Source of the DNA: a virus
Strand: one strand, 5' to 3'
Length of the DNA stretch: 50,030 nucleotides
Virus record (IMG/VR): IMGVR_UViG_3300030329_004005
Location: 1-50,030 of that record
Positions 3,001 through 38,300 of this stretch are shown here, in pieces. Position numbers and translations under genes: made by a program. Each line of letters starts with the position of its first letter. Within the stretch, counting starts at the first letter, position 1. The notes beneath the pieces are model-generated. The model was not told where the DNA came from. It did not search any database and saw only the letters and a list, made by a program, of their open reading frames with translations.

Positions 3001-6000
3001 TGCAATACCATTTGCCCCTGTTAGATCAACCCCAGTAATATCTCCTGTGTTTGTAGTATATCCTAATCCAATAACAAAGTCATATATTTGATCTCCAGTT
3101 GCAAGAGCTGTACCGCCATTGCTAACTGAAGCTGTTTTAGCTCTTACAGCATCAGAATTTAATTCAATGGTAGTATCGTCAACAGAAACTGCTAATGACA
3201 CGTCTCCTGAACTTCCTCCACCTGATAATCCATCCCCAGCTGCTACGGCTGTAATATCTCCAGAATTGCTTGTAAAACCACTATCATTATTAAAAATACT
3301 TAATCCTATTTCTCCTGCTGCTTTTCTTCTTGAATTGCTACCATCCAATACTACAAACTCATCTCCTGTAAGCATTCCTTCGGTCATATCAGTTAAGTCA
3401 CTACCATCGAAAGCCAATGTTCTTGAAGTAGTTAAATTACCACCTCCAGATAATCCATCTCCAGAAGCAATAGATATTCCACTATGATCTATATGTTCAT
3501 TAGCTACAAAATTATCAGCAGCATCATGATCAACTGTAAATGTTAAATCATATGGATCTCCATCTGTTCCATTATCTACATCAGTCCAATTTATATCAAT
3601 ACCAGAACCTTCTACAAATTTAACTTCTTTAGCATGAGATATAGTTACTTCAGTTCCGTCTCCATCTTCTAATTGAAATGTAGTAGCTTGGCTAGTATTT
3701 GTATAATTGCTTGAATGTATAGTTCCAGCACTCGATGCTGTCCAATCTATATGTTCATTTGCTACAAATCCAACTAACTTATCGTGTTCCCATAAAGCTT
3801 CTATTTCTGAAAATGCTTTTCTTTTACTTGTTGAACCATCAATAACAACAAATTCATCACCATCTACCATAGGATCTGTCATATCATCTAATTCTGTAGC
3901 ATCAAAAGTTAATGTAACCGATGAAGCTATATTTCCACCTCCAGTTAAACCTACTCCAGCATTAACTGCAACAGCAGTATGATCTATATGTTCATTGGCT
4001 ACAAAATTAGTAATTGCATCATGATCAACTGATATTGTCATATCATATTCATCAGATGAACTTCCATCAGAAATATCTGTCCAATCAGTAGCTACACCTG
4101 ATCCACCTAAAAATTTTACATATTTTCCATGAGATACAGTTACATCATCTCCATCGTCGTCTGAAATCACAAAAGTAGTAAGTTGATTTGTATTTGTATC
4201 TGTATAATTTCCTGAATGTATATTTGTTGAACCTTGATCTGTTGTCCAATCGATATGTTCGTTAGCTACAAAACCTAATAAGTTATCGTGATTCCATAAA
4301 GCTTCTATTTCTGAGAATGCCTTTCTTCTGCTACCTGATGAATCACTATTATCTAATACTAAAAATTCATCAGCAGCCACCATAGGATCTGTCATATCAC
4401 CTAATTCGGAACCATCAAAAGTTAATGTAACAGATGCAGATATGTTACCTCCACCTGATAATCCTACACCAGCGTTCACTGCTACAGCAGTGTGGTCTAT
4501 ATGTTCATTAGCTACAAAATTAGCTAAACTATCATGGTCAATAGTTCCTTGTGTTGCTGTCCCTATCGTTCCTTCAAGAGTGCCTACAACCAAAGTTCCT
4601 GCTGTATAACCTGTTCCAGATGTATTAACTGTCGTTGTTGGTGCTGCTTGTAAATCTTTAAATAACTTCCATTTCCCGCTATCATTTGCATCTCTAAATA
4701 ATCCTGAGTATAAATCTTGTGAACCTGAAGTATCATATAATCCATAAATTCCTATATCTACTGAATCAGCAGCATTATTACCTTTTGCTAATTTAATTAA
4801 TGGATCTTCTACATCTAATGTTGCTGTGCTTACTGTAACAGTATCTCCATTAACAGTTAAATCACCAGCGATAGTTACATCATCTGGTAATCCAATGGTA
4901 AATGTAGTTCCTTCACCAGCACTTCCTGATACTTCTATTTCGTTTGTAGTTCCTGTAACAGCAGCTGCATAGTTACCAATAGTATGTGATCCCAATTGGA
5001 TAAAATTATCTAATGATGTCTGACCTGTACCGCCTCTAGCTACACTTAATGTTCCTGTTGTTCCAGCAACTATAGGTAAACTTGTAGCATCAGATAAGTT
5101 AAATGCAGGTGTAGCATCTGAAGCACCTAATGCTAAAGTAATTCCACCATAACTAACATTATCAGATGCTAGTTTTGCAATAGGTATTTCATCATCATCT
5201 ATAGCAAAATTACCATAATCTAAATAATAACTTCCGTGTTGTCCATCTAATAAGTCAGAGTCAAGTCCGCTTGAAGCACCATCTACAGTTTTAATAGCTG
5301 TTAGTATTTCAGATGCTGATTGGTCTGCTGTTGCTCCATCTTCTACATTTAAATCGCTTCTTACTTCTGCTGCAGTTCTACCTTCTACTTCTGTTCCATC
5401 AATTCTAAGAAAATCATTATCTGCAACTGCATCATTAGCTGTTAAAACATTTCCATCACTAATACCTTTTGCTAAAGACTTTACAAATGCAAGGTTTGAA
5501 ACTTCGGAATCCATTAATGCACCTGCACTTGTTACATTTGCTGTATCTGTTACATCAGCACTTGCTTCAATTCCATCTAATTTAGTTTTTAATGTATTTG
5601 TAAAATTATTTTGTGTTAATCCACCATCTCCTACAGTATAGGTTGTATTCGTATCTGTTGAAGCAATTGTAACTGCTCCAGCACTTTCAGTGATAGTAAC
5701 ATTAGACCCTGCTGTGAATGCTAAAGTTTCTGAAGTAGATAAACTATTTCCACCTGCAGTTACAGGTCTCCATGTATTATCATTAGCAGTCATATCATCT
5801 ACTACCAAGTCAATAGTTCCGTCTCCATCTTGGTACTCAGCTGCAATTCTTGTTTCTGTATTAGAAGTAAACATTGCTCCAACAATATCTTGAACTAATT
5901 CAGTGCTAACATTATTGTCTACATATGCTTTAATTGATTGCTGAGTTGCAATTTTAGTTGCACTGTCAGAAGACATATCATCTTCGTCTAATACTGCAGT

Positions 6001-6396
6001 TCCACTAATACCAGTATTAATAACTGGGCTTGTTAATGTTTTATTAGTTAATGTTACTGAATTAGTTAAAGTAACATCTCCACTTGATACTAAATCTATT
6101 GTTCCATCACCATCTTGATAAGTAGCAGTAATATTAGTCTCAGTATTGCTACTAAACATAGCACCTACTGTATCTTGTATTGTTTCAGTTAAATCTATAT
6201 TTGCTGTACCGTCAAATGATACACCATGAATTGTTCTTGCTGTTGCCAATGCAGTAGCTGTAGGAGAAACAAATCCAGTAGCAGTTAATATATTATTATT
6301 ATCTGTACCATCATCGTATTTAAGATAACCGCCTTCTATAAAAACGAGTTTCTTATAAACGTCTTTTATTTTATTTGGCCCTGTTAAACTACCCAT
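1..6396 (-). CDS. Giant tail fiber / receptor-binding protein, C-terminus outside the window
   Basis: An ATG at 6396 opens a frame that stays open to the left edge, giving 2,132 visible residues; the C-terminus is missing. The composition is rich in Gly, Ser, Thr, Asn and Asp with few Cys or Trp, as in long trimeric fibers. The N-terminal part (MGSLTGPNKIKD) contains two copies of a segment with YQDGDGTIDLV. The middle has about 250-bp repeat modules starting NEHIDH or NEHIDW. The distal part has short motifs (TGMYR, LGVGI, SDGRVNYNG) typical of fibers that end in a chaperone domain of the S74 type, which would lie beyond the edge. The start overlaps the upstream 99-residue gene by 8 nt, indicating translational coupling. 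Role as the host-recognition fiber is inferred from size, composition and position at the end of the head-tail module. Confidence 0.8.
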   Translation of the reverse strand, partial: MGSLTGPNKIKDVYKKLVFIEGGYLKYDDGTDNNNILTATGFVSPTATALATARTIHGVSFDGTANIDLTETIQDTVGAMFSSNTETNITATYQDGDGTIDLVSSGDVTLTNSVTLTNKTLTSPVINTGISGTAVLDEDDMSSDSATKIATQQSIKAYVDNNVSTELVQDIVGAMFTSNTETRIAAEYQDGDGTIDLVVDDMTANDNTWRPVTAGGNSLSTSETLAFTAGSNVTITESAGAVTIASTDTNTTYTVGDGGLTQNNFTNTLKTKLDGIEASADVTDTANVTSAGALMDSEVSNLAFVKSLAKGISDGNVLTANDAVADNDFLRIDGTEVEGRTAAEVRSDLNVEDGATADQSASEILTAIKTVDGASSGLDSDLLDGQHGSYYLDYGNFAIDDDEIPIAKLASDNVSYGGITLALGASDATPAFNLSDATSLPIVAGTTGTLSVARGGTGQTSLDNFIQLGSHTIGNYAAAVTGTTNEIEVSGSAGEGTTFTIGLPDDVTIAGDLTVNGDTVTVSTATLDVEDPLIKLAKGNNAADSVDIGIYGLYDTSGSQDLYSGLFRDANDSGKWKLFKDLQAAPTTTVNTSGTGYTAGTLVVGTLEGTIGTATQGTIDHDSLANFVANEHIDHTAVAVNAGVGLSGGGNISASVTLTFDGSELGDMTDPMVAADEFLVLDNSDSSGSRRKAFSEIEALWNHDNLLGFVANEHIDWTTDQGSTNIHSGNYTDTNTNQLTTFVISDDDGDDVTVSHGKYVKFLGGSGVATDWTDISDGSSSDEYDMTISVDHDAITNFVANEHIDHTAVAVNAGVGLTGGGNIASSVTLTFDATELDDMTDPMVDGDEFVVIDGSTSKRKAFSEIEALWEHDKLVGFVANEHIDWTASSAGTIHSSNYTNTSQATTFQLEDGDGTEVTISHAKEVKFVEGSGIDINWTDVDNGTDGDPYDLTFTVDHDAADNFVANEHIDHSGISIASGDGLSGGGNLTTSRTLAFDGSDLTDMTEGMLTGDEFVVLDGSNSRRKAAGEIGLSIFNNDSGFTSNSGDITAVAAGDGLSGGGSSGDVSLAVSVDDTTIELNSDAVRAKTASVSNGGTALATGDQIYDFVIGLGYTTNTGDITGVDLTGANGIAISSETNTTSGNYSSTVGIDIGAIGTSLSSEPEDEDLFVVEIATSGAIRKLAYSEIKSTGITIDGTTANGVLTYGGTNNIDTESNLTFDGTDLSVAAGGKISVDEVEGKSNNTNTLLLNDDQTAATNMVTLQSINHVNIMTDGNNNGTGNFAVYNGSYDVDTADLAFRITSTGLARFENDIDIPATNKIYLDGRGNTYITESSSDNVSLYAGGQQMMVWSEGTNDLIYVPDGLYLGVGSDVDMYMRHNGSNSWLTNSTGDLYITNDANDKDIILSSDDGSGGTTAYLTIDGGANKIIANENIDIVTSSDEMMRFKRSGADEVSIEQDSSQLYFYNRTTSKVLFLMSEGGNAKMGYNTNPIFELRNEGTSAGNGGSLTFGHNQDSSTTAMARISGYLVDGSSGGRAGHLRFWTSRAGSDELAMQLQNDNKLRLYQPGDTSDYGEMYVDDDRVHFHAASGNYHRFTTDHGYIELGPANSGWGHINTDRSKFYFNKQITVDSGVITAYDEDLSLQRNHDSANDSILIASSSIQHKLDGNVKLQINSDGRVNYNGWTGVDHITVRSNGHTNSGSSNTFYIKFCTVVVDDSPANYNGVSLSGKIYNGDNSHGNWIDWSVWFNNPLDSGSISHGGFMRSNGAHWINNILVQRTAGDGEIDNGSCTYELYYDINQNWANNFYNVATEVHYPSENKFNVTWNHDQSEVTSLPGTEVVNMQTNTYDDGCQTLVQSGSVGAPSYSFLASRNTGMYRGASDTIDFTNGGTRMLTIQADGDLELRSDGSSQGASIQRVGQIQFTWDRDSYGTSNNHAIVCNSDNLIINSFDDVTINLDSNDNDGSETFDIRKHDTSLTGGTLLFQVDGAGLCSSYGGYGSIDGTAGSPSFRFNNDADTGMYRVSANTLGFSTGGSNRVTIDSSGLGVGITPAEVLDLKTSSGDCRIRMDAPDGSDCEIKFYNDGAVQYTMGYDDGADEFRIGTDNVDSGVRFKLTDNGVNIADGGLGVDVAPS
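3488..4560 (-). repeat. Imperfect tandem repeats of about 250 bp inside the tail fiber gene
   Basis: A recognisable start, encoding NEHIDH or NEHIDW, recurs near 3488, 3746, 3983, 4250 and 4496, with spacings of 258, 237, 267 and 246 bp. Two alternating module types make a higher-order unit of about 500 bp. The repeats stay in frame with the fiber and encode shared motifs such as VGLSGGGN, LTFDGSEL and RKAFSEIEALW. This looks like shaft duplication within the fiber. Confidence 0.75.
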
Positions 6397-6688
6397 TTGA
6401 TTCTATATCCTCATATGTTGGATTACTTGGTTGAGATTGATCTGCATAACTTGCATCACTAGGAATTGATACATCTGCATAACTTGCATCACTAGGAATT
6501 GATACATCCGTATAAGATGCATCACTAGGAATTGACACATCCGTATAACTAGCATCCAAAGGAATTGCTGTATCTGTATACTTAGCGTCTAAATTATCAT
6601 CAAATGAAAGAGCTAAACTATCAAAACTTTCAGCAATTGAATCAAAGGATTCCAGTCCAAAATGACCTTTTCTCCAAGTTTTTGCCAT
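6389..6688 (-). CDS. Small repeat protein next to the tail fiber
   Basis: A 99-residue protein, family not recognised. The N-terminal 35 residues contain Ser-Phe-Asp repeats (ESFDSIAESFDSLALSFDD). The remainder is an 11-residue tandem repeat of the form DASYTDVSIPS, about 4-5 copies, decaying at both ends. The acidic Ser/Asp/Tyr-rich repeats suggest an extended structure. It overlaps the fiber start by 8 nt, so the two are probably translated together; a fiber-attachment or fiber-assembly role is plausible but only inferred from context. Confidence 0.7.
   Translation of the reverse strand: MAKTWRKGHFGLESFDSIAESFDSLALSFDDNLDAKYTDTAIPLDASYTDVSIPSDASYTDVSIPSDASYADVSIPSDASYADQSQPSNPTYEDIESNG
6441..6590 (-). 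repeat. 33-bp tandem repeat inside the 99-residue gene
   Basis: A 33-bp unit occurs about 4.5 times. The copies at 6444-6476 and 6477-6509 differ by a single base, while the outer copies are more diverged, so the array expanded recently from the middle. The unit length is a multiple of three and encodes the 11-residue peptide repeat. Confidence 0.85.
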
Positions 6689-6691
6689 TTA

Positions 6692-6862
6692 TTAATTCCA
6701 GCGTTTGCCCATTAAATGGTCCATTGCTTGTGATAAAGTACTTTTTTGCTTTCTTTTAGCTAAATTCTTTTTTGCTTTGGCTTTAGCTGATTTTGCTTTT
6801 TTTGCAATCCCTGAAGCTTTCTTTGCTATTTTTTTATACCCTCTCTTTGGTCCTATTGCCAT
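6692..6862 (-). CDS. Small highly basic protein (56 aa)
   Basis: A 56-residue ORF with a strong ribosome-binding site (GGAGG, 4 nt before the ATG). The sequence is dominated by Lys and Ala (for example IAKKASGIAKKAKSAKAKAKK) and ends with a short less charged tail MDHLMGKRWN. It fits the gap between the 136- and 99-residue genes. It may bind DNA or act as a virion cement or core component; no family recognised. Confidence 0.7.
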   Translation of the reverse strand: MAIGPKRGYKKIAKKASGIAKKAKSAKAKAKKNLAKRKQKSTLSQAMDHLMGKRWN

Positions 6863-6873
6863 GATTCCTCCTA

Positions 6874-7284
6874 TTAGTAACTATGTTGTTTGATAGATCC
6901 AATTCCAGAAATTCTGCCTCTATTAGCAAATGTTTTTCCTTCCTTAATCCCACGTTCAAATCTTCTTTCAAAATATAATGCTTTATTTAACATATCAGGT
7001 TCTTCTTCATAACCATACTGTATAGCTTTATCTACTAAATACTGATGAAACTGTGTAGGTAATTCACTTTGTTCAGTCATAGCAGAAGAGCCTGAATCTA
7101 ATGTATTAAAATGATCTGCTTTTTTATAATAAAATAAAGTTATTTGATATGCAGCATCTGGAGAAGTAAATTTATTCTTTTCTTCTACCATAGGATCATA
7201 TTCTGCAATACCAATTGAATCTCTTTCAATCCACCATAAGTATTGTTTTCTAGTTCTGTCGTATACTTTATTATAATTTGGCAT
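6874..7284 (-). CDS. Putative head-tail adaptor/connector-associated protein
   Basis: A 136-residue protein between the head genes and the fiber genes. The C-terminal half has a pattern seen in phage head-tail adaptors: a Leu-Pro-x-x-x-His start (ELPTQFHQYLVDKAIQYGYE) followed by an alpha-helical ALYFERRFERGIKEGK segment. Its ATG overlaps the stop of the upstream 92-residue gene by one base (TAATG). Assignment as an adaptor is inferred from this pattern and from position after the capsid gene. Confidence 0.55.
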   Translation of the reverse strand: MPNYNKVYDRTRKQYLWWIERDSIGIAEYDPMVEEKNKFTSPDAAYQITLFYYKKADHFNTLDSGSSAMTEQSELPTQFHQYLVDKAIQYGYEEEPDMLNKALYFERRFERGIKEGKTFANRGRISGIGSIKQHSY

Positions 7285-19621: not shown

Positions 19622-19912
19622 ATGGTAATAGATAGATATGATATAGGTTTAGAAAAGATTGAAAATGAAAATAAAGAAAAAGCATTAGCAAGATATTTGG
19701 CTAATGCTTTACTTAATGATAAAGAAATGCAAGAAACACATTTAGCATATTATATATTTCAATTATGGCAATATTCATATAAACAGTGTAATAGAGATAA
19801 AGAAACAATAGATAAATATAATTTAAAAGAATTTTATGCCAATTGTGTAAATAATAGATTGAATTCAACAAATAATACTACAAATGTAGTGAAGGGAAAA
19901 GAAAATGGCTGA
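19622..19912 (+). CDS. Hypothetical helical protein (96 aa) coupled to the ubiquitin-like gene
   Basis: A 96-residue helical protein starting MVIDRYDIGLEKIENENKEK. I chose the ATG at 19622 because GGAAGGA lies 7 nt upstream; two earlier in-frame ATGs sit inside or before that site. The centre (ARYLANALLNDKEMQETHLA then YYIFQLWQYSYKQC) resembles small phage proteins with a conserved helical pair, but no family is named. It overlaps the ubiquitin-like gene by 8 nt, so the two are translationally coupled. Confidence 0.6.
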   Translation: MVIDRYDIGLEKIENENKEKALARYLANALLNDKEMQETHLAYYIFQLWQYSYKQCNRDKETIDKYNLKEFYANCVNNRLNSTNNTTNVVKGKENG

Positions 19913-20132
19913 ACAGCATACTATAAGATTACTTAATGGAAGCGATACTTTTGAGAATACATTAGTTACATCAACAACTGTTGGTGCTTTAAGAACTGAA
20001 TTAGATATTCCAAATAGTGCTACTGTTAATGTTAATCAGGCAAGGGCTAATAACGATACTGAATTAGTTCCAAGTCAAGGTGCCGATTTTGCTGTTGTAT
20101 CAGTGGTATACAACAATAAAACAGGTGGTTAA
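19905..20132 (+). CDS. Ubiquitin-like (beta-grasp) protein ending in Gly-Gly
   Basis: A 75-residue protein with the expected order of a beta-grasp fold: strand 1 (HTIRLLNG), strand 2 (NTLVTSTTV), helix (GALRTELDIP), strand 3 (ATVNVNQAR), an extended acidic turn (NNDTELVPSQG) and a final strand (AVVSVVYNN) leading to KTGG. The chain ends exactly at Gly75, so no processing is needed before E1 activation. AAGGGA precedes the ATG. It is followed by genes for a JAB protease and an E1, the usual partners of a conjugatable Ubl. By direct count 79 of 228 bases are G or C (about 35%), clearly above the flanking genes. MoaD/ThiS-like sulfur carriers also end in GG; the neighbours with an E2-like motif favour conjugation, but this is inference. 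Confidence 0.82.
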   Translation: MAEQHTIRLLNGSDTFENTLVTSTTVGALRTELDIPNSATVNVNQARANNDTELVPSQGADFAVVSVVYNNKTGG

Positions 20133-20146
20133 ATAATAATAAATGT

Positions 20147-20177
20147 ATTCAGGTAAGGTTAATTGCCTTACCTGAAT
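20147..20177 (+). promoter_or_regulatory. Perfect 12-bp hairpin between the ubiquitin-like gene and its enzymes
   Basis: ATTCAGGTAAGG (20147-20158) pairs perfectly with CCTTACCTGAAT (20166-20177) across a 7-nt loop. It starts 14 nt after the Ubl stop codon and ends 15 nt before the next ATG. No T-run follows, so it likely protects or processes mRNA, allowing more Ubl than enzyme to be made. Confidence 0.7.
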
Positions 20178-20192
20178 ATGAAAGGAAAAGAT

Positions 20193-22145
20193 ATGTCTAA
20201 TCATAGTGTAAATTGGAATGAAAGTAAATGGAAAATAATACCTTTTGAAGAAAATGCTATAAATCCTTCTGAATTTATAGATAGTGTATTATTAGGTCCA
20301 CAAAAAAGTGTTTTAGAAAAAATAAAAATCTTTAATGATAACTACTATTACACAGCACAAATACCAAATGGTATTAATCCATTAGGTATTACTAATAAAT
20401 TTAGATTAAAATCAAAAAGTTCTGATACTATAAAAGCAATAATTCATTACCATTGTTTAGGTTGGAAAAAAGGAACTAATATAACTAATTTATTTAGACA
20501 ACCTTATGGACATTATTTTAGAAACATAGGTGGACAATATAATGAAATTGCAAGAGAATTATCAAATTTAAGATATGAAAATGCAACATTTCAGGATAAT
20601 ACAGAAATAACACGAAGAATAATTAAAGAAATTCAAAATAATATACAAGATAGAATAAGTAAAGCAAATGAAAAAGAAAATGTAGAAGTATTTTGTTTTT
20701 ATGAAACAAATGATAGTTTAACTAATATGAATTATAGAAATGAATATACTAATGATACATTTTTAACAATATATATGAAATTTTCAAATCAAAAAATGGA
20801 TATTTGGCAATCAGAGAATTTCATAGAAACTATCGATATACCAGGTAATATATGGATTAAAACAAAATTTAATTTAAGAAAATATATTACACTTCTTTTA
20901 GATACAGCACATAACTTTGATAAGCATACCATGAATGAAACATATCTTCACAGTGAAGAACATCTAAAAGAAGAATTATCATTTGATAAATATACTTATG
21001 ATAGACTACTTTCTTATAATAAATGTATTATGTATAAAAAAGAAGTAGTTAAACAATTAAATATAGAAACAAAAAATGGAAAAACAACTAAAAGTATATT
21101 AGAATATGATGATTGTTTAAAATATCTATTTGAATTTAATAAAATATATAAATTAACAACTAATAATAGTAGATATAGAATATCTTCAAGATGTATTAAT
21201 ATGTTAGGTTTATATGATGATAAATATTCACATATGTTTAATAATTATTCAAGAACATTCCCATTCATATCCAGAACTAATAGTTATAGTTCAAGTCAAG
21301 ATCATAAATTCGCTATTAAAGATAAAGTTTTTATGAATGATGAACTAACAAAAAAATTGTCTTGTATTAGTGATTTAAATACTAATAGAATGCAAAGTGG
21401 TTTTGGACATTTATGTGGCGGTAGTGTGCAATCTTCAATGGTTAATTCATTATCAGATATGGATTTTGAAAGTTTCTTTGTTCATTTTGAAAATTGGAAA
21501 ACATTCAATATTGGACATACAGGGCCATTAAATTCATTAGAAAATATGTTCTTTGGAATACCAGAAAAAAGAACTGATAAATTTAAGGAATTAATTACAC
21601 AAGATTTAAAATATAATGCCCAATCAGTTTGGCATTCTTGTGTATTTGATATGAATTTAGATAATTTCCTTAATATACAATCAGATGAACATATAATAAT
21701 AGATTGTCCAGTTATTAATAGTGTTAATGAATATGATGATGATGATAATCTTATTAATAAAGAATATGAAATTCGTCAATTATCTTTAAAGGAATCATTA
21801 GAAAGTGGTGGTAATCCTGATATCTATGAATTTGATGATTATGTCAATCAAGATATAAAAATTAAAGATAGTAATGGACAAATTAGATATGAACCATATG
21901 AACCATATTTTATGGAAATCTGTAAAAGATTTCTTGCAAAATATGATAATATGGATAGTGATTTTAGAAATAGTTGTCCTTTGTTTGAAAATATAGAACA
22001 AGTATTTGGATATATGAATTCAAATAAATTTAAAGAAAGACAACTTTCAATAGAATCAAAAGATGATGAAAAAGAAAAGGAAACAAGTCGTAGTAGAGAA
22101 CAAATGGAAATGGAAGAAATACAACGAATTGTTAGATCTTTATAA
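20193..22145 (+). CDS. Large cassette protein with candidate E2-like motif (650 aa)
   Basis: A 650-residue, very AT-rich gene between the Ubl and JAB genes. The ATG at 20193 is used because AAAGGAAA lies just upstream; earlier possible starts fall in the hairpin. No family is recognised overall. Residues about 400-450 contain GFGHLCGGSVQSSM followed by a helical segment and FNIGHTGPLN, which resembles the catalytic patch of divergent prokaryotic E2 enzymes (His-x-Cys-x-Gly, then a helix and an aromatic-Asn pair); C408 is the candidate active site, with H406 and H442 nearby. The C-terminal 60 residues are a charged helix. Its place in the gene order is the one occupied by E2 in Bil systems. 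Alternative: a scaffold or substrate protein of the system. Confidence 0.6.
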   Translation: MSNHSVNWNESKWKIIPFEENAINPSEFIDSVLLGPQKSVLEKIKIFNDNYYYTAQIPNGINPLGITNKFRLKSKSSDTIKAIIHYHCLGWKKGTNITNLFRQPYGHYFRNIGGQYNEIARELSNLRYENATFQDNTEITRRIIKEIQNNIQDRISKANEKENVEVFCFYETNDSLTNMNYRNEYTNDTFLTIYMKFSNQKMDIWQSENFIETIDIPGNIWIKTKFNLRKYITLLLDTAHNFDKHTMNETYLHSEEHLKEELSFDKYTYDRLLSYNKCIMYKKEVVKQLNIETKNGKTTKSILEYDDCLKYLFEFNKIYKLTTNNSRYRISSRCINMLGLYDDKYSHMFNNYSRTFPFISRTNSYSSSQDHKFAIKDKVFMNDELTKKLSCISDLNTNRMQSGFGHLCGGSVQSSMVNSLSDMDFESFFVHFENWKTFNIGHTGPLNSLENMFFGIPEKRTDKFKELITQDLKYNAQSVWHSCVFDMNLDNFLNIQSDEHIIIDCPVINSVNEYDDDDNLINKEYEIRQLSLKESLESGGNPDIYEFDDYVNQDIKIKDSNGQIRYEPYEPYFMEICKRFLAKYDNMDSDFRNSCPLFENIEQVFGYMNSNKFKERQLSIESKDDEKEKETSRSREQMEMEEIQRIVRSL

Positions 22146-22210
22146 TGTTAACTAAAATAGTAGAGTGGCTTTATAAGTCATTCTACTATTTATTAAAAAA
22201 AGGAAATGAT

Positions 22211-23104
22211 ATGCAAGAAACAGAATTTTATATTGATGAAAAAGATTGGAATAAAATCCAACAATATTGTCAATATGCATATGATAAACATAAATCAGAA
22301 ATAGGCGGTATGTTATTAGCAGAATTAGATAAAGATAATAACTATCGTTTATTTGAACCTACAATATTAAAACAAGAAATATCAATGGCAAATACTGTAT
22401 TAGATAAAGATGAATTAGCAAATTACTATTCGAAAATAGGTATGAAATATGATAATGTAAGATTTGTATGGTGGCATAGTCATCACACAATGTCTGCATT
22501 TTGGTCTGGAACAGATTTAACTGCAATTGATGAAATGGCTAATGGAACTATGTCATTATCATTAGTAGTAAATTTAAAAGAAGAATATAAATTTAGAGTA
22601 AATATATGGAAACCTATACAAACATTTGAAGACATTGAATTAAAAATTATTAGAAAAGATAAGAAAATTAATAAAAGTGTTAAAAAAGAAGTTGATAAAC
22701 TATGTAATACAGAAAAACCTGAAAAGTCTTGGAATAATACAAAACAAACTTCATTAGCATTTCCAGGTTATAGATATAAACCAGAAAAAGAAATATCATT
22801 AAATAAATCATATTATCAACAAATAGTTTCTAAAACAGAAACTATTCATCAGGATTATGAATTTAGTATGAAATCAAAAGAACAATATAAAGAATACAAA
22901 AATGAAGTAGTCAAAACAAATAAGATATTATCTGATAATAATGTAATGTATAGAATATTACTATTAAATAAAAAACAATTAGATGATACTGTTGATTGGC
23001 TACCAGTTGAAAGTGTAATTTATAATAAAAATACAAATTGTTCATTTGATGATATTATGATAGAATATCAATATGATATTAGACAAGAAAGTTGGGAATC
23101 ATGA
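22211..23104 (+). CDS. JAB/JAMM (MPN) metalloprotease, putative deubiquitinase-like enzyme
   Basis: A 297-residue protein. The ATG at 22211 has AGGA 6 nt upstream, whereas an in-frame ATG at 22145 (overlapping the previous stop) has none. The JAMM signature is complete: E30 in SEIGGMLLAE, then H89-S-H91, x7, S99, x2, D102 (WHSHHTMSAFWSGTD). This is the zinc site of isopeptidases that remove ubiquitin-like proteins. The region after residue 150 (charged, Lys-rich) has no recognised domain and may bind partners. Because the Ubl already ends in GG, this enzyme is predicted to deconjugate rather than mature it. It overlaps the E1 gene by 4 nt. Confidence 0.88.
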   Translation: MQETEFYIDEKDWNKIQQYCQYAYDKHKSEIGGMLLAELDKDNNYRLFEPTILKQEISMANTVLDKDELANYYSKIGMKYDNVRFVWWHSHHTMSAFWSGTDLTAIDEMANGTMSLSLVVNLKEEYKFRVNIWKPIQTFEDIELKIIRKDKKINKSVKKEVDKLCNTEKPEKSWNNTKQTSLAFPGYRYKPEKEISLNKSYYQQIVSKTETIHQDYEFSMKSKEQYKEYKNEVVKTNKILSDNNVMYRILLLNKKQLDDTVDWLPVESVIYNKNTNCSFDDIMIEYQYDIRQESWES

Positions 23105-23763
23105 TAGATAGTAGATACAGTGGAATAGTTAGTAATTTCAATGAATATACTTATCACATTTTAGGTTGTGGTGCTATTGGTAGTAGCACTGCAACTCAAT
23201 TGGTTCGTATGGGTGCAAATAAATTGCATTTATATGATTTTGATAAAGTATCAATTGAAAATGTAGGTGTATCAATGTATGATACAGGTTCTGTAAGATT
23301 AGAAAAAACCAAAGCATTATCAATAATATTAAAACAAATAAATCCAGAAATAGAAGTTCAAATACATAATGAAAAATTTAAACACTATTACCCTGAATTA
23401 AAAAGAAATGTTGTTGTATTAGGTTTTGATAATATGGAATATAGACTACAAGCAGTTAAGGAAGTATGTAAATTCAAAAATTGTGATTTCTTAATAGATG
23501 GTAGAATGGGAGCAGAACAGTTCCAAATGTATACATTCATTAATCCAACTGTTAAGAAATATGAAAAGTGTTGGTATAGTGATGATAAAGGTGATCCTGA
23601 ACCTTGCAATGCCAAAGCGACAAGTTATTGTAGCAATATGGCAGGAAGTTTTATATGCAATAGCATAAGAAAACTCATTACTAAACAACCTTACAATCCT
23701 ACTGTATTTTTTAGTTATCCTGATAATACAATAGAAACACCAAAAGGACTATCATTTCCTTAA
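23101..23763 (+). CDS. E1/ThiF-family adenylyltransferase, minimal form
   Basis: A 220-residue protein starting at an ATG that overlaps the JAB stop (ATGA). The Rossmann ATP site is clear: HILGCGAIGSSTATQL (GCGAIG 22-27), LYDFDKVSIEN (D46, D48, N54), K71 and GFDNMEYR (D110). The segment LIDGRMGAEQFQMYTF, then PEPCNAKATSYC and AGSFICNSIRKL, is typical of E1-like proteins found with JAB genes; C169 or C177 is a candidate thioester cysteine. No zinc-binding CxxC pairs and no C-terminal ubiquitin-fold domain are present. It should adenylate the Gly75 of the upstream Ubl. The Gln/Arg usually seen after the Asn motif is replaced (ENVGVSMY). Confidence 0.88.
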   Translation: MIDSRYSGIVSNFNEYTYHILGCGAIGSSTATQLVRMGANKLHLYDFDKVSIENVGVSMYDTGSVRLEKTKALSIILKQINPEIEVQIHNEKFKHYYPELKRNVVVLGFDNMEYRLQAVKEVCKFKNCDFLIDGRMGAEQFQMYTFINPTVKKYEKCWYSDDKGDPEPCNAKATSYCSNMAGSFICNSIRKLITKQPYNPTVFFSYPDNTIETPKGLSFP

Positions 23764-29345: not shown

Positions 29346-32300
29346 TTAGCGATTTTTGTTGAATTCTTCTAATTTTTCCTTGTCTTCCCAATATTTTTCT
29401 GCTTGTTTTGATTCTCTTGTCATTCTTTGCTGTAATCTATGAATTGGAAGCCCAAATAAATTTTCAGCAAACATTACAGGATTGTCAAGTGTCTTGAATG
29501 CACTTGCACCTAGTCTTCCAAAAGGTACACTAGCAGGAAGTGTATATTGCCAATATGAATCCCAATCGCCTGTAATCCCTGCTCTTATAGGACCCAATGG
29601 TAATCTTGCTGTAGGAGGTGTTACAACAGCAAGTGGTGATAAAGCAGGAACACCATATGGATTGTAGAATGCTTTTCTTTTTTCTTCATCATCACCATAT
29701 AGTAATTGAACAATATCTTCTAACCAACCAAAAGGTGGTGCTAATGCATGTTCAAATAATGAAGAAAAGAATACTGAAGCTAAACCTAATTGTACTACAG
29801 CAATATTAGTCATTCTTCTTAATCTTTTTGTTGCTTCCATATCTTTTACAAATCTTGCAGCATCTGCATCTTTCTTTGCAAAATGCCATCTTCTTAAAGA
29901 GTTCCAAGTAAATGGATGGAATCTTGTCATCATTTTACCTAATGGAGTATTAGCAACATGTGGTCTTCTAGTAGCATGATAAATAAATTGAGATCTTTCT
30001 ACAATCATTCTTGCATAGTCCCATACAAAATCTCTATTGATTATTCTATCTTTACCAAAAGGATCACCTGTTACATTCATTTCATTTAATGCTTTTTTAT
30101 ATGCAGCAATAGCAGTATGAGTACGTAATAACATTTCAGAATGTCTCATAAATAAAGCACCATGTTTTACAATAGCATCAGATACACCATGAATATTTGA
30201 TAATTCTAAAACTGTTTTATCTACTTCTTTTGCATATCGTACTGCAGTTTCATTGGTATTATTTAATAAAGAAGGATCTTCTATAAATTTTTGTTTCATT
30301 TTTTTATTTAAATCTCTAAAGAAGTTTTTTGCTTCAGCCCCTTTAAAACGAGCATCATAAAGTGTATCCTGTTCTATAGTACCAGAAATAATACCTTTTT
30401 GAGTCATAAGCAAGTTAACATCTTCTTTAGCAGATCTAGGATTTATTTTTTCTGTTGTAAATTGTCCAGGATTTCTTGGATCTGGTCTTTGAAATTCTTC
30501 ACCTCTTAATATATTTACTCTGTCTTCATGTCTAATACTTGATTTCCAATGATCAAATCCAACATCTCCAATGATATTAGCTTCACCACTATAAACATTA
30601 GTCATCCATGCTTTAGGGTGATATAATAAAGATAATAAATTATATTTACCTTCCCATCTTGCTAAAGTATTCATTGATGTTCTTAAAGCTCTTCTTCTTG
30701 TATCAATATCTTCAGGTAAATCTTTAAGATTGATAATTCTTCCTAATCCAAATTTTTTAGCCCTACGATTAAGCCATTCCATTGCATCTGTTGAAGCACT
30801 TTCACTAGTATAAAAAGCAGGATTTGTAGAAAAAGTATAATTCAATGGACGAACTGTATACTGTTTAAAGAAACCTATTTTATCAATATTCTTAGGATCA
30901 ACTTGTTCTTGAAGGTTTATAACTCTTTGTTCATGAACTTTTGATTCAAAGTTTGCTTTTACAGCAGCATCATCTGGTTTTGGACCCATTTTAAATACTT
31001 GGTTGTTTATCCAAGATAATATTTTTTGTTCACCTTCCATTTTGTATTTTTTAGGTGCTGTAGCAAGTCCTGCTCCTAATTCTCCTATTACTTTTATTTT
31101 TTTGTAATCACCTTTATTAAAAGTTTTAATAATAGTATTTATATCTTCTTGAACAAGTTTTTCTATTTTAGGTCTATCAGCATCAGTAAAATATGATTCT
31201 TTCTTTTTATCAGGTGACCATTTTGTTCTAACTCCTATTGCATTAGATAGTCCTCTTATTTCTGCAGATCCACCAGTTCCTTTTCTAGCATTATTATCTC
31301 CAAAGACCCATAAGGTATCTTTTGCTTTACCTACATATCCTTTTAAATTAGTTATTTTTTTTGCTGGTTTAAAGGGTTCTACTACTATAGGTTTCTTTTG
31401 TATTTTTTTCAACTCTTCACTATAAGCACGTTTTTTCATAGCATATTGATCACCTCTACTAGGTTCAACTGTTTTTCTTAATATATCTATAAAATTTAAA
31501 TCTCTTACATATTCACCAGATAATCCTTTTCTTACCATTGCTCTAATTCCATCTATATTAAAGCTAGTAACATCATTTCTAGTCTTAATTTTTTTCCCTT
31601 TATTAGTATATTCTATATTATATAAACTATCTTCATCATTTTGTTCTGCTAATCTTTTTAACATCCCATAATGGTATTTAGTATATCCAAATTGCATAGG
31701 ATTATAAAGAGTTTCTCTATTCATCCATCCTTTCTGTGCGATTTGAACATAATTAATCCAATTTTCAGACATTTGTCCTATTTCTTTATCTTTTCTAGCT
31801 AATCTTTGAAAATCTTTAATTGCCATGTGGTTAGCTAGAAGTACCATTCTTTGGATATTGATGCTACTCATAATTTCATGATATCTAAAAGGAACACTCA
31901 TTCGTGTATCTTTGTGAGGTAAAGGGAAGGCTCCTCTTCTCATCAAAGGCCCAAAAGCTCTTCCAGGAGTAGATTTAGTTTGATAAGAATCATACATTCT
32001 AATATCGCCTTCAACTAAGGTATTTTCACGTTCTTCTATTCCTTTAACTCCAAGTCTATTTATTTGAAATTGAAGTTGATCGTATAAATGTTGTTTAATC
32101 TCTGGTTCAGTCATTTCTCCTGTTTCTAATTTCTTTTTATAATAAGGACTAAGTTGATCCATAGAAAATTGTGGTAATACTTCTTTCCCATCTTTAGTAA
32201 CTTTCTCACCTAATATCCAAGGTTCCATAACATCTTTAGAGAATTTCTTAATATTTTCTATGTCTGCTTTAATGTTTTGATGTCCTGACTGATAAGCATA

Positions 32301-35300
32301 GGCATTGGAAGTTAAATTTTCACTAGTAATTTCACCTTGTAAGTCATAATCTATCTTATTTTCTCTTTCATATTTTTCGATCCATTCTTTTATTTTCTTT
32401 AAAGTTGGGCCTTTTGCTTTACTTACGTTTATAGGATTATCAAATTTATCTCTTGGCATTTTTTCCTGAACATAATTTAATTTATTTAATTCATATAAAA
32501 TCCAGTTCATATCTTGACCAGAGAATACATAGTCGTTTATCTTATCAGGTGGTAATGACTTATTATTAAGGACATAATTTGTTATATAATGTATTTTATC
32601 CATATTAATAAGTTTTAAACCTCGTTTAATATATAAATACTCTTTTAAATCTTTTACATATGCTCTATCTGATGAAATATTTTTTAATTCTGATGGAGGT
32701 ACCTTGTATTTTTTAGCATTACCACCTGCTGCACCATCAAGTAAAATTGCTAAAGGTCCTTTTTCTGTTATTGGGCTACCGTCTTTCTCTATCAACATAC
32801 CCTTGCTATCTCTTTTGATTGATAAAAAGTTAGAACCTATATATCTATCACGACCATCAGTATAAGCTTTAGTATGTGTTTTTGCCACAAGTTTTATCAT
32901 ACTATCTAAATTTACCTTTCTAGGCTTTCCATCTATATCTCTAACTATAAATTCCTCTTTCTTTTCTTTCATTTCTTTTTCAATTTCTATTTTATCTTTT
33001 TGTGCTTTCTCATATGCCTGATTATATATAAATTTACTAAGATCAAGTTCATTTTTTCTTGGATATTTACCATCATTATATTCACGTTCTGCTGTAGCAA
33101 TATCTGATAGCCTATCTTTATATTTACCAAAGACTTTATAATCATCTAATTTTAAATATGGATCAAGCATTGCGTCTTTATAATCCTCAAGATGAGGTTT
33201 TTGTTGAGCTGATAATTCTTCAATTTTCTTTGTATTGTTAAGAACTCTTTCAAACATTGAAGTAGGACTTAAAACTTTCACTGGAACTATTCTTTTAATA
33301 TCACCATCTTTTGTAGTAACATATTTTTCTGTCCTTATTGTTTTGGCAGTAACTGAATTTGGTCTTCCAGCTTGAATATATCTATGCATCTTTGTCATAT
33401 CATCTGGATAATTCCAAGCCCAATCTTTCCTTAAATAAGGATCTCTAAGAGTAAGTATATCTACTTCTTTATCTTCTTCCAATATCTTTGCAATTTTCAT
33501 ATCATTTGCACTTAATTTAAATTCACTTTCAAGATAATTTACAAACATTTCAAAGTCTTGTCTGGTCATATCTTTCATATCTTTGGCTTTCATATTAAGA
33601 TCGGATTGCATTATTCTAAACAAATCTAAATAATTTCCACTCCATCTACCATTTGTACTAACATGAAAATCTACAAATCTATCTTTTAATACTAAATCTT
33701 CTATATATGGCTGTTGTTTTGGAAACTTTTTTAAAGCATCTTTAGTGGATATCTGTTCAGCCATTTGAACTGGGAACATTTCTTCAACTACTTTATGTCC
33801 TTCTTCTGCAATTCTTTCATTTAAATTTATATCTTCTAAACTTTTTTGTATTTTTTCTGGTAATTCTCTTTTAACTTCTTTAACTGCTGCTTCTGATGTT
33901 TCATAAAACTTAGTAGTAAAATCCATATATCTTCTATAATTTTCTGGAGTAATAGACTTAACTCTGTCATTATTATTATAACTACCAACTATTTTTTTAG
34001 CATTACCACCTCTTTGTTTATATAAATCTGATAACTTGCTCTGAAGAGATTGATTTTGTGGATCTAATCGAAGCTCTATCTCTTTTTGTTCAATTAATCC
34101 TTGAAGTCTATCGTGTTCTTTATATAGACTCTCTAAATTTGTAGATTTTACTAAAGGATTATCTCTCAAAACTGGGAAAGCCAACCACCACATATCATAT
34201 AAATTGTCTATACTCTTTTTTAATTCAATTCTTTCGTTAGTTGTAGTTTTTATTCCTAATCTATCAAAAAATTCCAATGTTTTATCTTGTGCTCTTTTTT
34301 TATTTAGTCTGTGCAATACAGTTCTTTTAGGAGCAGTTTGTCCTTCTGGTAAGTTTGCTTCTATTTCTCCCAATTTAATAGCATTGTTTTCACGTATAGA
34401 CTGTCTAATTATTTCCATAGCTGGTTCTCTTAATCCATGTTTAGTCATTACTTCTCGAAAACCTTCGCTAGAATGTAATGCTAAATAGTTTGCTAAAGCT
34501 CTGTGTGTATGCATTCTAAATAATTCTGGGGTTGAACCTATCTTTTTAAGTTCTCTAGCTGATACGTGTGTTAAGAACAAATTATGATAATCTAAATCTA
34601 CGCCTCGTAATTCTCTCCCAATTTCACTATTGCTAATAGCTTTGGTAAGAGGTTCAATCATCTTAATTATAGATTCACTCTCTGGAAGTATTTCTGTAAA
34701 TTCTTTTGGATTAAGATTCAACTTACTAAGATTTTCTCCTAATATCTTCCAACCATCTTCAACCCCTTTATACTGATCCATATATCTATTAACAATTTCT
34801 TGAGCTGAAGGTTGATCAGGAATTCTACTTTCTTTTCCTCTTAATAATAGTTGAAAATTCTTTGTATCTGTTAAGAAAGGAATTTGTTCAACAATTTTAT
34901 CCCATGGAGTATCTACAAGATTCATTGGTTTTCCATCTTTTTTAAGATTAAAATGTTTAAGAAGTTGATTACGTAATATTTCACTATATCCATCAATTTC
35001 TTTAACTTTAACAGCATCTACAAGTTCATTAGCAATGATTTCAGAATCTCTATCAATTCTTCTTGCTCCCTTTTCTCCAGGTACTGCATTTGATATTTCA
35101 ACTCCTTCTCCAAAATCTGTTTTTCCTTGCTCAATTAATGAATGCATACGCATAAAAGCTTTTTTACCAACATCTGCCATACCCAAAGAAGAGAATCCTT
35201 TACCAGAATTCTGAGCTTGTTTAATATTTTCTAAAGGATTTAAAATATGATAAGATGTTGCTAGGTCAGCTTCTTTTACTGCTCCAGTTAATCGTGAGAT

Positions 35301-38300
35301 TTCATTATGATCATCAAAGCTTTTCATTACTTCAAAAGGATTATTATTTTTATTATGAGCAAATTGAACCTCTTTCCTACCAAAAGAATCATTCCATTCT
35401 TTACCCATTATAAATATATTTGCTTTATCACCATCATTATCAGCACCAGACATCATTCTTTTATTAAATGCATCTACTACTATAGATAATCCCTTTCTTC
35501 CTTCTATGTATCCTTTCATTTTCCATATTCTAACATTGCTTATAGAATTTACAGGATCTCTTTTACCACTAAATCTTACATTCTCTAATACTTCTTTGTA
35601 AGTTTCTCCAGTCTTTATAGCTGGACTATTCATTAACCAATTGGTATTATTGTCTCTCATTTCAGTTAAATTATCAAAATATTCTTTTCCTGTTAATACT
35701 TGAATTATATTATCCTGTTTATCACGAATTGGTACTTTTATTACACGAGCTAAACCTTCTGACATTAAAAATTCATCATGTTTTATATTGAATTTTCTTT
35801 CTGTGATAGGATCATATTCCCTTAAAAGAACAGTAGCAGAATGTTTTATTCTAGGACTATTCATTCTTTCAGTTGTATACAACTTCAAAGCTGCTTCTAC
35901 GAATGCTCCGTGCCTTGCAAGAGTTTGGTGATGATAGCCTGACATTTCTAATTGTTCTTTAGTCTCGTATAAATCTCTTAAATTAATTTCTGCAAGTTCT
36001 AACTCTGAATACATCTCTATCTTTTTTTGGAAATCTACTTCACTTGATAAGCTATTAGTTTGTTTAAATACCTGTTTAAGGATAGATGCAATAGATTGTG
36101 TATGTTCTTTTTTATAATAATTATTTTTTGTATAATCATTAAGTTGATTAATATTAATATCGTCTATATCTAAATTCTTTCTACTAAATGCTTTTCTATC
36201 ATTAACAACATCTTTTACAAACTTTCTATTTGCTTTCTCAGTTCCTTGCATATCCTCTACTAATAGCTTTTCTAACATATCCATGTCCATATTAGTCTTA
36301 GTAGCTAAGTCAAATATAGGTTTAGATATTCTTATGTTTCCTATCTTTGTAAAGTCTTCTTTAGCACCACTATTAACATATATATCATCTATTCTAAACT
36401 TATATAAATTATTTTCTTGTAGTTCTTTTGCTTTAAATCCTTCTGGATATGTTATGCCAGCTTCAATAGTATCTGGTTTAAATCCTTCTCTAAATTCAAG
36501 TTGATCTTTTTCATTTATTCTACCTTCTTTTGGAGTAGTCATATGATTTATCATTAATACATCATTATCTCTCATCCATTTAGCATAAGCTGGATCTGCA
36601 GCAACAAGCAAATGCTTTAAAGATATCTCTCCCTTTCCTGGATTGATAAAAGAAGGTATATTAATAGTAGTTTTAATACTACCGACATTTGTATTTTGTC
36701 CATCAATTTTAGCAATTTCTTTAATCATCTCAGGAACAGTTAAACTAATACCATCCCAATCTGCTTCACGAGAAAGAATTAATTTAGCTTCTTTAGGATT
36801 ATTCATGCTACCATAAGGGATTTTACCGTGTGTGTTCTTCATCCACACCATATTAGCAGAACCAGTGTTTGTTAAGCTATCTAAAGGAACATCCCATCTC
36901 TTATGAGACTGTTTCTGAAAGAACTCTTCCTTATATTGTTCCTTCCAGTATGGTTTCGACTTTTGATCTGCGTATTTTGAATAAAGAGCAAGCCAATCAA
37001 TCTGTAATTGTTCTAAATCAGTTTTTCCCGTCAGTTTATTTTTCTTTCCTACGCCCCCTTCTTCTCTGATTGCATTCCCTAATTCAAAATCGAACTCTCT
37101 ATCTCTTATTGTCAGAGCATCTTTTCCATCAACTGTTTGATATCTGAACCCTTTTGGCTGTAAAACAATTACATTTTTTACACCAGCCATAGCACCAGCT
37201 TTTGCCCCCGCTTCATCTGCTCCTGATTGTCCTCCAGTTCTTATTTCTTTTATATTCAATTTTTTCTTAACTTCAATTAATAAACTTGAGACATATCTAT
37301 CTAATGATTTTTGTGTCCAACCAGTGCCAGTTCTATCAGTAAATTTCATAAATTTATTAATACTATTACCAGCAATATTAAGTATTATGCCATCTTTTAA
37401 TTTTTCTTTTCCAGCATGTTTTACAATATGATCAACTATTTTATTAGTATGTTCTTTTAATGAAGTTGATGATGGATTAATTCCTATAAAAGAGTTCTTT
37501 CCATTTTCAGATTCTCTTGAAAACTTTTCAGTAAGTCTCATACCAGCACTTTTTGAATCAACAGATATACCAAGAGTAAAATCTGTAGGACCATTAGGAT
37601 AGCCATAACCTGTTGCATTTCTATAGGTTCTATTATGATATCTTTTTACAAATTCTTCTCTATCAGATTTATTTTTTCCTCTAAATACTTTATTAGTCTT
37701 CATATTGATTATCTTATTATTATTAAAATAATTCATCATAATATAAGGACTAATATGTTTTTCATTATCTTGAGTTAATTTTATTTTTTGAAATACCCTT
37801 GAGTTAGGATCGTATTCTGGATTACCTCCTGGAAAGAATTTACGTAATTCTTTAAAATAAGGCTTCATTGGTATTTCAATACCATAAGGTAGTTTTAAAC
37901 GTTTACTAAATGATGATATAGATTTATGAAGATCATTTTCTGCCCACTCTAGTATTGTTAATGGATTTTTATAATAGTTATAAGCTTTTTTACCAGATAA
38001 GTTTTTTCCATCAGTCATTCCCATGAATCTTAATCGCCATATATATTTCCCTACAACTGAATCTATCATTTCTTGACTAGGATTTTTCTTTCCTATACTT
38101 TTATCTTGTTCTCGTATTTTATTATATATAAATTTTCTTTGTTTTTTAGTTAAAGTATTTTTACCATCTGCCCTTAACCAAGGATATTTTAATAATACAA
38201 TTCTACCTGTATCTCCTTGTCCGCCATAAAATAAAAGTTTCTTTTTAGCAAACTCTGGAATTCCTTGTTTTTCCCAATATTTCATAGAAATAAAAGGTTC

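Follow-up and report, generated by a model that had tools for sequence, protein, structure and literature searches.

Organization and conservation of the cassette

The window, which is the whole stretch of DNA analysed here, is the 50,030-base IMG/VR virus record IMGVR_UViG_3300030329_004005 from an uncultured phage. It encodes a large terminase, a portal, and a major head protein; therefore, its identity as phage DNA, as asserted in a preliminary description of the sequence, is certain. Four co-directional open reading frames on the plus strand between positions 19905 and 23763 encode a ubiquitin-like protein (Ubl), a large protein considered here as an E2-like candidate, a JAB/JAMM metalloprotease, and an E1/ThiF-family activating enzyme (Table 1). 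The coordinates and residues in the preliminary description are correct, as is the overlap of four nucleotides between JAB and E1, in which E1 starts at 23101 and JAB ends at 23104. Translation of the large protein from ATG 20193 gives 650 residues with the conserved cysteine at position 408, and from TTG 20163 it gives 660 residues with the cysteine at position 418. The JAB is 297 residues long when started from ATG 22211; an upstream ATG at 22145 is possible. Genes with replication-type matches, including a DnaB-like primase/helicase, are located downstream of the cassette, and it is on these neighbours only that its earlier placement in an early region of the phage is based.

Table 1 Positions of the cassette genes and associated features in the window
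Feature	Position	Strand	Basis
Ubl, 75-residue beta-grasp ubiquitin-like protein, KTGG end	19905..20132	+	Alignment, AF2 model, Foldseek
Stem-loop, 13-bp, in the spacer between Ubl and large protein	20146..20178	+	Compensatory change in L006
E2-like candidate, 650 residues	20193..22145	+	Open reading frame, conserved Cys, model of compact relative
Codon of invariant Cys of large protein (C408 of 650 / C418 of 660), C-x-G motif	21414..21416	+	Invariant in 55/55
JAB/JAMM metalloprotease, 297 residues	22211..23104	+	Active-site residues, profiles
Compact E1/ThiF-family activating enzyme, 220 residues	23101..23763	+	PF00899, conserved residues
Codon of candidate E1 catalytic Cys (C169 of 220 / C172 of 223), EPCNAKATSYC motif	23605..23607	+	69/71 loci

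The stem-loop downstream of the Ubl gene was considered as a switch of stoichiometry and rejected, because similar stems follow other genes (14/48 vs 63/311, p = 0.19), and there is no enrichment after the Ubl over other gene ends of these phages. Elsewhere in the window, positions 29346–40712 of the minus strand encode a protein of 3788 residues with a DNDGD motif near residue 1758, which matches two unknown phage families and is perhaps a giant virion protein or an RNA polymerase-like protein.

A scan with the E1 identified nine viral loci, and a scan with the JAB alignment yielded 317 relatives, 80 of which were kept. Removal of duplicates left 76 distinct viral loci, including the window. 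JAB and E1 are adjacent in all 71 loci with enough downstream sequence. Among the 46 loci with more than 3.5 kb of upstream sequence, the Ubl is present in 44 and the large protein in 45. The gap from the Ubl to the large protein reaches up to 3 kb, and the remaining junctions mostly overlap or abut. Pairwise distances calculated for the four proteins are correlated (Mantel r of 0.65–0.85, with none of 2000 permutations as high), which shows co-inheritance and not interaction. The dN/dS values of the window relative to its nearest relative, L006, are 0.19 for the Ubl, 0.17 for E1, 0.37 for JAB, and 0.84 for the large protein; the corresponding values for the pair L007 and L009 are 0.19, 0.06, 0.18, and 0.32. 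The Ubl, JAB, and E1 are thus under purifying selection (dN/dS 0.06–0.37), and the large protein evolves faster than the other three, although an alignment rich in indels may have raised its value of 0.84. The features of the cassette are not attributable to chance, because each is conserved across 50–76 distinct loci, and ends in Gly-Gly are rare among short open reading frames of the loci (25/2004, with the Ubls themselves counted in).

Bacterial ISG15-like (Bil) operons, which act against phages, encode a Ubl, an E2, a JAB, and an E1 in that order. Of the 45 complete phage sets, 44 keep the order of Ubl, large protein, JAB, and E1, in which the large protein stands where Bil has the E2. The viral ownership of a set in the order of a defence system, which had been singled out previously, is a conserved and selected property for the Ubl, E1, and JAB with a fourth protein that has an invariant cysteine. 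The shared order, and matches of JAB and E1 to PADLOC defence models, would agree with a Bil-like defence cassette carried as cargo to exclude competing phages. Such a role is highly improbable, since the cassette is not sporadic but kept in the replication module across the whole phage group and, in related form, in crAss-like phages, and since two scans with narrow patterns, which covered 84,980 species of bacteria and archaea, found no cellular cassette and returned just distant E1-type matches from Anaerococcus. The scans of these 84,980 genomes suggest that the cassette has no close cellular relative, rather than none at all.

Ubiquitin-like protein, protease, and activating enzyme

The window Ubl has the C-terminus NNKTGG followed by a TAA stop codon. 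When used alone in profile searches, it did not match any known family. In an alignment of 47 members, K72 is invariant and G74 and G75 are conserved in at least 90% of the sequences. The AlphaFold (AF2) model calculated from this alignment has a pLDDT of 86 and a beta-beta-alpha-beta-beta topology with a loose KTGG tail. Foldseek ranks Mth1743, ISG15, Caldiarchaeum ubiquitin, NEDD8, and SUMO at the top of its PDB matches. Although no E-value is better than 2.9e-3, the first 50 matches are ubiquitin-like proteins or complexes that contain one. The fold is thus confidently predicted to be the beta-grasp on which the earlier interpretation of the locus depended. WD40 proteins among the top matches of the Ubl profile are repeat artefacts.

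The K-x-GG motif is present in 49 of 50 distinct Ubls, including that of the window, and the Gly-Gly is thus terminal or placed where processing could expose it. Twelve of the proteins stop at the motif and 37 continue for 1–60 residues. The Ubl of L006 is 85% identical to that of the window and has the residues KIVVK after the Gly-Gly where the window has a stop codon. The open reading frame of one Ubl tail of 60 residues is under purifying selection (dN/dS 0.05), which identifies the tail as a real coding sequence. Because the tails differ so much from each other on a constant K-x-GG, they are best read as removable, and the tailed Ubls as probable precursors that require trimming. The pro-ubiquitin of Caldiarchaeum, in which nine residues past the Gly-Gly are removed by Rpn11 and the uncut form of which cannot be used by E1 (PMC5654768), is a direct archaeal precedent. 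Some relatives from the gut encode a small Ubl-like protein that lacks the Gly-Gly: L014 at positions 7031–7273, which ends in QKTENA, and L099 at positions 3134–3370, which ends in QKMDNALAA.

The JAB active-site residues E30, H89, H91, S99, and D102, the intactness of which had been claimed, are present in the window and invariant in all 76 loci (E52, H111, H113, S121, and D124 in open reading frame numbering), as is the JAB/JAMM signature E...H-x-H-x7-S-x2-D that they form. The protein matches the Pfam model Prok-JAB with an E-value of 2.5e-4, which is below the Pfam cut-off, and PADLOC JAB models with an E-value of 1e-8. Its best solved relatives are Caldiarchaeum Rpn11, which ranks first, eukaryotic Rpn11, and CSN5.

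The E1, which is 220 residues long when started from ATG 23101, contains the GCGAIG motif and D110 and matches PF00899 (ThiF) with an E-value of 8.8e-22, as expected from the preliminary description. Its best solved relative is UBA5 (E = 1e-18), the E1 of UFM1, ahead of MoeB and ThiF. The residues GCGAIGS, R39, D49, D51, N57, K72, and D113 (in the numbering of a 223-residue protein) are invariant in 71 of 71 sequences and R8 is present in 70 of them. The enzyme thus has the Rossmann ATP-binding module with conserved arginine, asparagine, lysine, and aspartate. C169 (C172 of 223) is present in 69 of the 71 loci, and crAss-type E1 enzymes also have a cysteine at this position. Because profile alignments to solved E1s end before it, C169 is proposed as a candidate catalytic cysteine on the basis of its conservation and position in the sequence.

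The same proteins could serve a sulfur carrier, in which the Ubl activated by E1 would become a thiocarboxylate donor, the large protein would use the sulfur, with a nucleotide or tRNA as a possible substrate, and JAB would free the carrier as the JAB of sulfur operons does. Members of the Ubl family weakly match models of ThiS, SAMP2, and MoaD rather than those of ubiquitin, the E1 matches the NCBIfam models of ThiF and MoeB, far below their cut-offs, and sets of JAB, Ubl, and E1 also occur in ThiS/MoaD operons for sulfur transfer (PMC1779556). However, most of the Ubls have tails past the Gly-Gly, the solved structures closest to the E1 and JAB profiles are UBA5 and Rpn11/CSN5, respectively, and the large protein does not match any known sulfurtransferase family. 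Furthermore, a scan of the four genes of the cassette and of six genes close to it gave no match to rhodanese, cysteine synthase, ThiG, or MoaE, so that the link to cofactor synthesis that would have spoken against conjugation was not found there. The tails, the affinities of the enzymes, and the absence of cofactor genes from the scanned neighbourhood make the sulfur carrier unlikely.

Large protein and its counterparts in crAss-like phages

The large protein alone does not match any known family apart from one weak unknown PHROG. It varies widely in length among relatives; its cysteine in the C-x-G motif is invariant in all 55 sequences, with [HF]P[YF]I before it in 48 of them and W...[TS]xP after it in 36. 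In a model of the compact relative from L085, which has a pLDDT of 82, a long helix is followed by strands between residues 160 and 252; next come the FPYI motif and the cysteine at position 272, and helices after that. According to Iyer et al., bacterial E2s have a conserved cysteine and a meander of four strands flanked by helices (PMC1779556), and both the order of the motifs and the predicted topology of the large protein fit this description. Identification of the large protein as a known E2 was unsuccessful: there were no E2 models of Pfam, NCBIfam, or PADLOC among the matches listed, and a Foldseek search of the PDB with the model gave no fold match and no solved E2. A Foldseek search of BFVD gave strong matches to six viral relatives; it also matched crAss-type proteins, one of them from cr128_1 (E = 3e-4), and, weakly (probability 0.33), a phage protein named Type II CBASS E2 domain. 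The large protein is therefore called E2-like for its proposed role and is not a proven E2, which makes it the weak link of the interpretation, and its C408 is a candidate acceptor of a Ubl thioester. In 20 of the 55 large proteins, including that of L085 (positions 5607–6995), the key cysteine is followed by a cluster YC-x(3-6)-C-xx-[RKH]-xx-C, which is perhaps a metal site and is degenerate in the window.

The E2 fold, unconfirmed by PDB Foldseek or family models, together with the wide length range and fast evolution of the large protein, leaves room for a pathway with no true E2, in which E1 would hand the Ubl to a cysteine or lysine of the large protein itself, switching it on or off, and JAB would reverse the modification. 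This is improbable, given the invariance of the cysteine in 55/55 sequences, the E2-like topology of the model, and the order of [HF]P[YF]I, cysteine, tryptophan, and [TS]xP, which mirrors that of E2s.

Searches of cultured phages by tblastn gave nothing for the Ubl, large protein, and JAB; E1 alone matched. In cultured crAss001, gp79–gp76 and, in relatives, their counterparts follow the gene order of the window, with a probable Ubl, a C-x-G protein, and a homologous JAB and E1. This set is present in crAss001, other crAss-like (Steigviridae) phages, and Flavobacterium phage Fpv2. The E1, annotated as ‘thiamine biosynthesis protein’, is homologous to the E1 of the window family with E-values of 1e-27 to 1e-37, and the adjoining JAB, annotated as ‘metalloprotease’, with E-values of 5e-7 to 6e-12. 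The protein with the invariant C-x-G is positioned upstream of JAB and is preceded by the Ubl candidate, in which a long tail comes after a Ubl-like N-terminus and a conserved K-x-[KRS]-SG. When scored with the Ubl profile of the window family, the crAss candidates occupy the top eight ranks among 410 open reading frames, each weakly (E of 0.1–0.8), and the profile–profile comparison gives a P-value of 0.0005. Unlike the window Ubl, the crAss candidate ends in K-SG-A fused to the long tail. In type II CBASS, a terminal glycine or alanine serves conjugation, and the terminal alanine of cGAS can stand in for glycine (PMC10097602). The C-x-G proteins do not align with the large-protein family by sequence, with non-significant profile–profile P-values of 0.18 for the whole length and 0.01–0.03 around the cysteine, and are linked to it by Foldseek in BFVD (E = 3e-4).

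The cassette is not peculiar to this phage: the 76 viral loci show its spread in a group of uncultured phages, and crAss-like phages have an altered form of it. Membership of the window virus in Crassvirales is not supported by its terminase and capsid matches. The searched papers on crAss001 and on the diversity of crAss-like phages contain no mention of ThiF, ubiquitin, or JAB. The crAss-like sets have further peculiarities. In cr106_1 (L103, positions 725–1928), a gene for an HNH endonuclease is located between the Ubl, which ends in KSGKF, and the gene for its C-terminal tail. The Ubl tail of L002 (positions 2286–2963) and its homologues ends in a conserved S-x-x-EI-x-x-[ML]F, which resembles a docking peptide, and overlaps of tens of bases are common between the reading frames for the C-x-G protein and for JAB (L002, positions 4298–4359).

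A putative phage pathway of ubiquitin-like conjugation

The cassette is not a demonstrated member of the Bil, CBASS, or PRTRC systems. The likeness to Bil rests on gene order, and the phage cassette differs from Bil in being phage-borne and in having a large E2-like protein from a family without a database match; among the PADLOC matches listed are JAB and E1-E2 models only. Type II CBASS with Cap2 and Cap3 has in common with the cassette an E1, a JAB, and an E2 cysteine, for which C408 is the candidate in the phage, and the window E1 matches Cap2 structures. By contrast, E1 and E2 are fused in CBASS, whereas E1 and the E2-like protein are encoded by separate genes in the phage, the modifier is cGAS rather than a dedicated Ubl, and no nucleotidyltransferase was found in the cassette. 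The operon of Caldiarchaeum subterraneum shares a pro-ubiquitin tailed past the Gly-Gly, a JAMM protease (Rpn11), and an E1, and structures from this organism are among the best matches of the window JAB and Ubl; however, the phage cassette has no RING E3, and its E2-like protein has no sequence relation to known E2s. Membership in PRTRC was rejected. Weak matches to PRTRC_A of JAB (E = 0.0017) and to PRTRC_ThiF of E1 (E = 0.0052) from the PRTRC system of mobile elements fall far short of the cut-offs for TIGR03735/03736/03737 (18 vs 101.8 and 16.1 vs 144.75 bits), the Ubl and large protein do not match PRTRC models, and no match to PRTRC_B was found in the window. The text matches to ‘PRTRC’ in papers on Rhizobium tropici refer to the plasmid pRtrCIAT899. 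The lambda-like tail assembly proteins TAPI, a Ubl, and TAPK, a JAB, show that phages can encode a Ubl together with a JAB (PMC1779556); they belong to tail genes and are accompanied by neither an E1 nor an E2-like protein, in contrast to the phage cassette. No report of a phage cassette of this kind was found in searches of an open-access library.

The cassette probably encodes a pathway for the conjugation and deconjugation of a Ubl by the phage. This reading is favoured because of the KTGG tail, the invariant sites of JAB and E1, the nearness of these enzymes to Rpn11/CSN5 and UBA5, the cysteine conserved in 55/55 large proteins, the linkage of the genes, and the selection acting on them. 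Where a tail is present, JAB would trim the Ubl to the K-x-GG end; the window Ubl is already made with a Gly-Gly end. E1 would adenylate the terminal glycine and then take the Ubl onto C169, from which it would pass to C408 of the large E2-like protein. The large protein would attach it to lysines of a target that it selects itself, and JAB could remove it again. We infer both these reactions and lysine as the acceptor. The lack of an E3, the lack of an E2-model or PDB fold match of the large protein, and the Ubl-like proteins without Gly-Gly in L014 and L099 count against the pathway. Of the conjugation system claimed in the preliminary description, the set of Ubl, E1, and JAB with a fourth protein containing an invariant cysteine stands, and that protein, for which there is no fold match in the PDB, is a candidate E2. 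A target at the phage–host interface of early infection is favoured, because the cassette has replication-type neighbours and its E2-like protein evolves fast; early proteins of the host or of the phage both fit.

The broader proposal, a virus-specific Ubl conjugation with its own E2 family that is common to uncultured phages and human-gut crAss-like phages and modifies host or phage proteins in replication, has somewhat less than an even chance of being correct. The chemistry would be of a known kind; what is new is that a virus owns the whole set, that the E2-like family lacks a database match, and that there is a link to crAss-like phages. Tagging with ubiquitin-like proteins is known from eukaryotes and bacterial defence, and to date its bacterial form is recognized chiefly as an anti-phage weapon. 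Phages encoding the whole chemistry would reverse this picture. The pathway would give a function to the conserved crAss genes labelled ‘thiamine biosynthesis’ and ‘metalloprotease’, and would bring a new E2-like family, together with simple Ubl precursors, into accounts of the origin of ubiquitin systems. Named bacterial hosts are on record for crAss001, DAC17, and Flavobacterium phage Fpv2, all three of which are culturable; the Bacteroides phages crAss001 and DAC17 would provide a cultivable natural system for asking what viruses tag.
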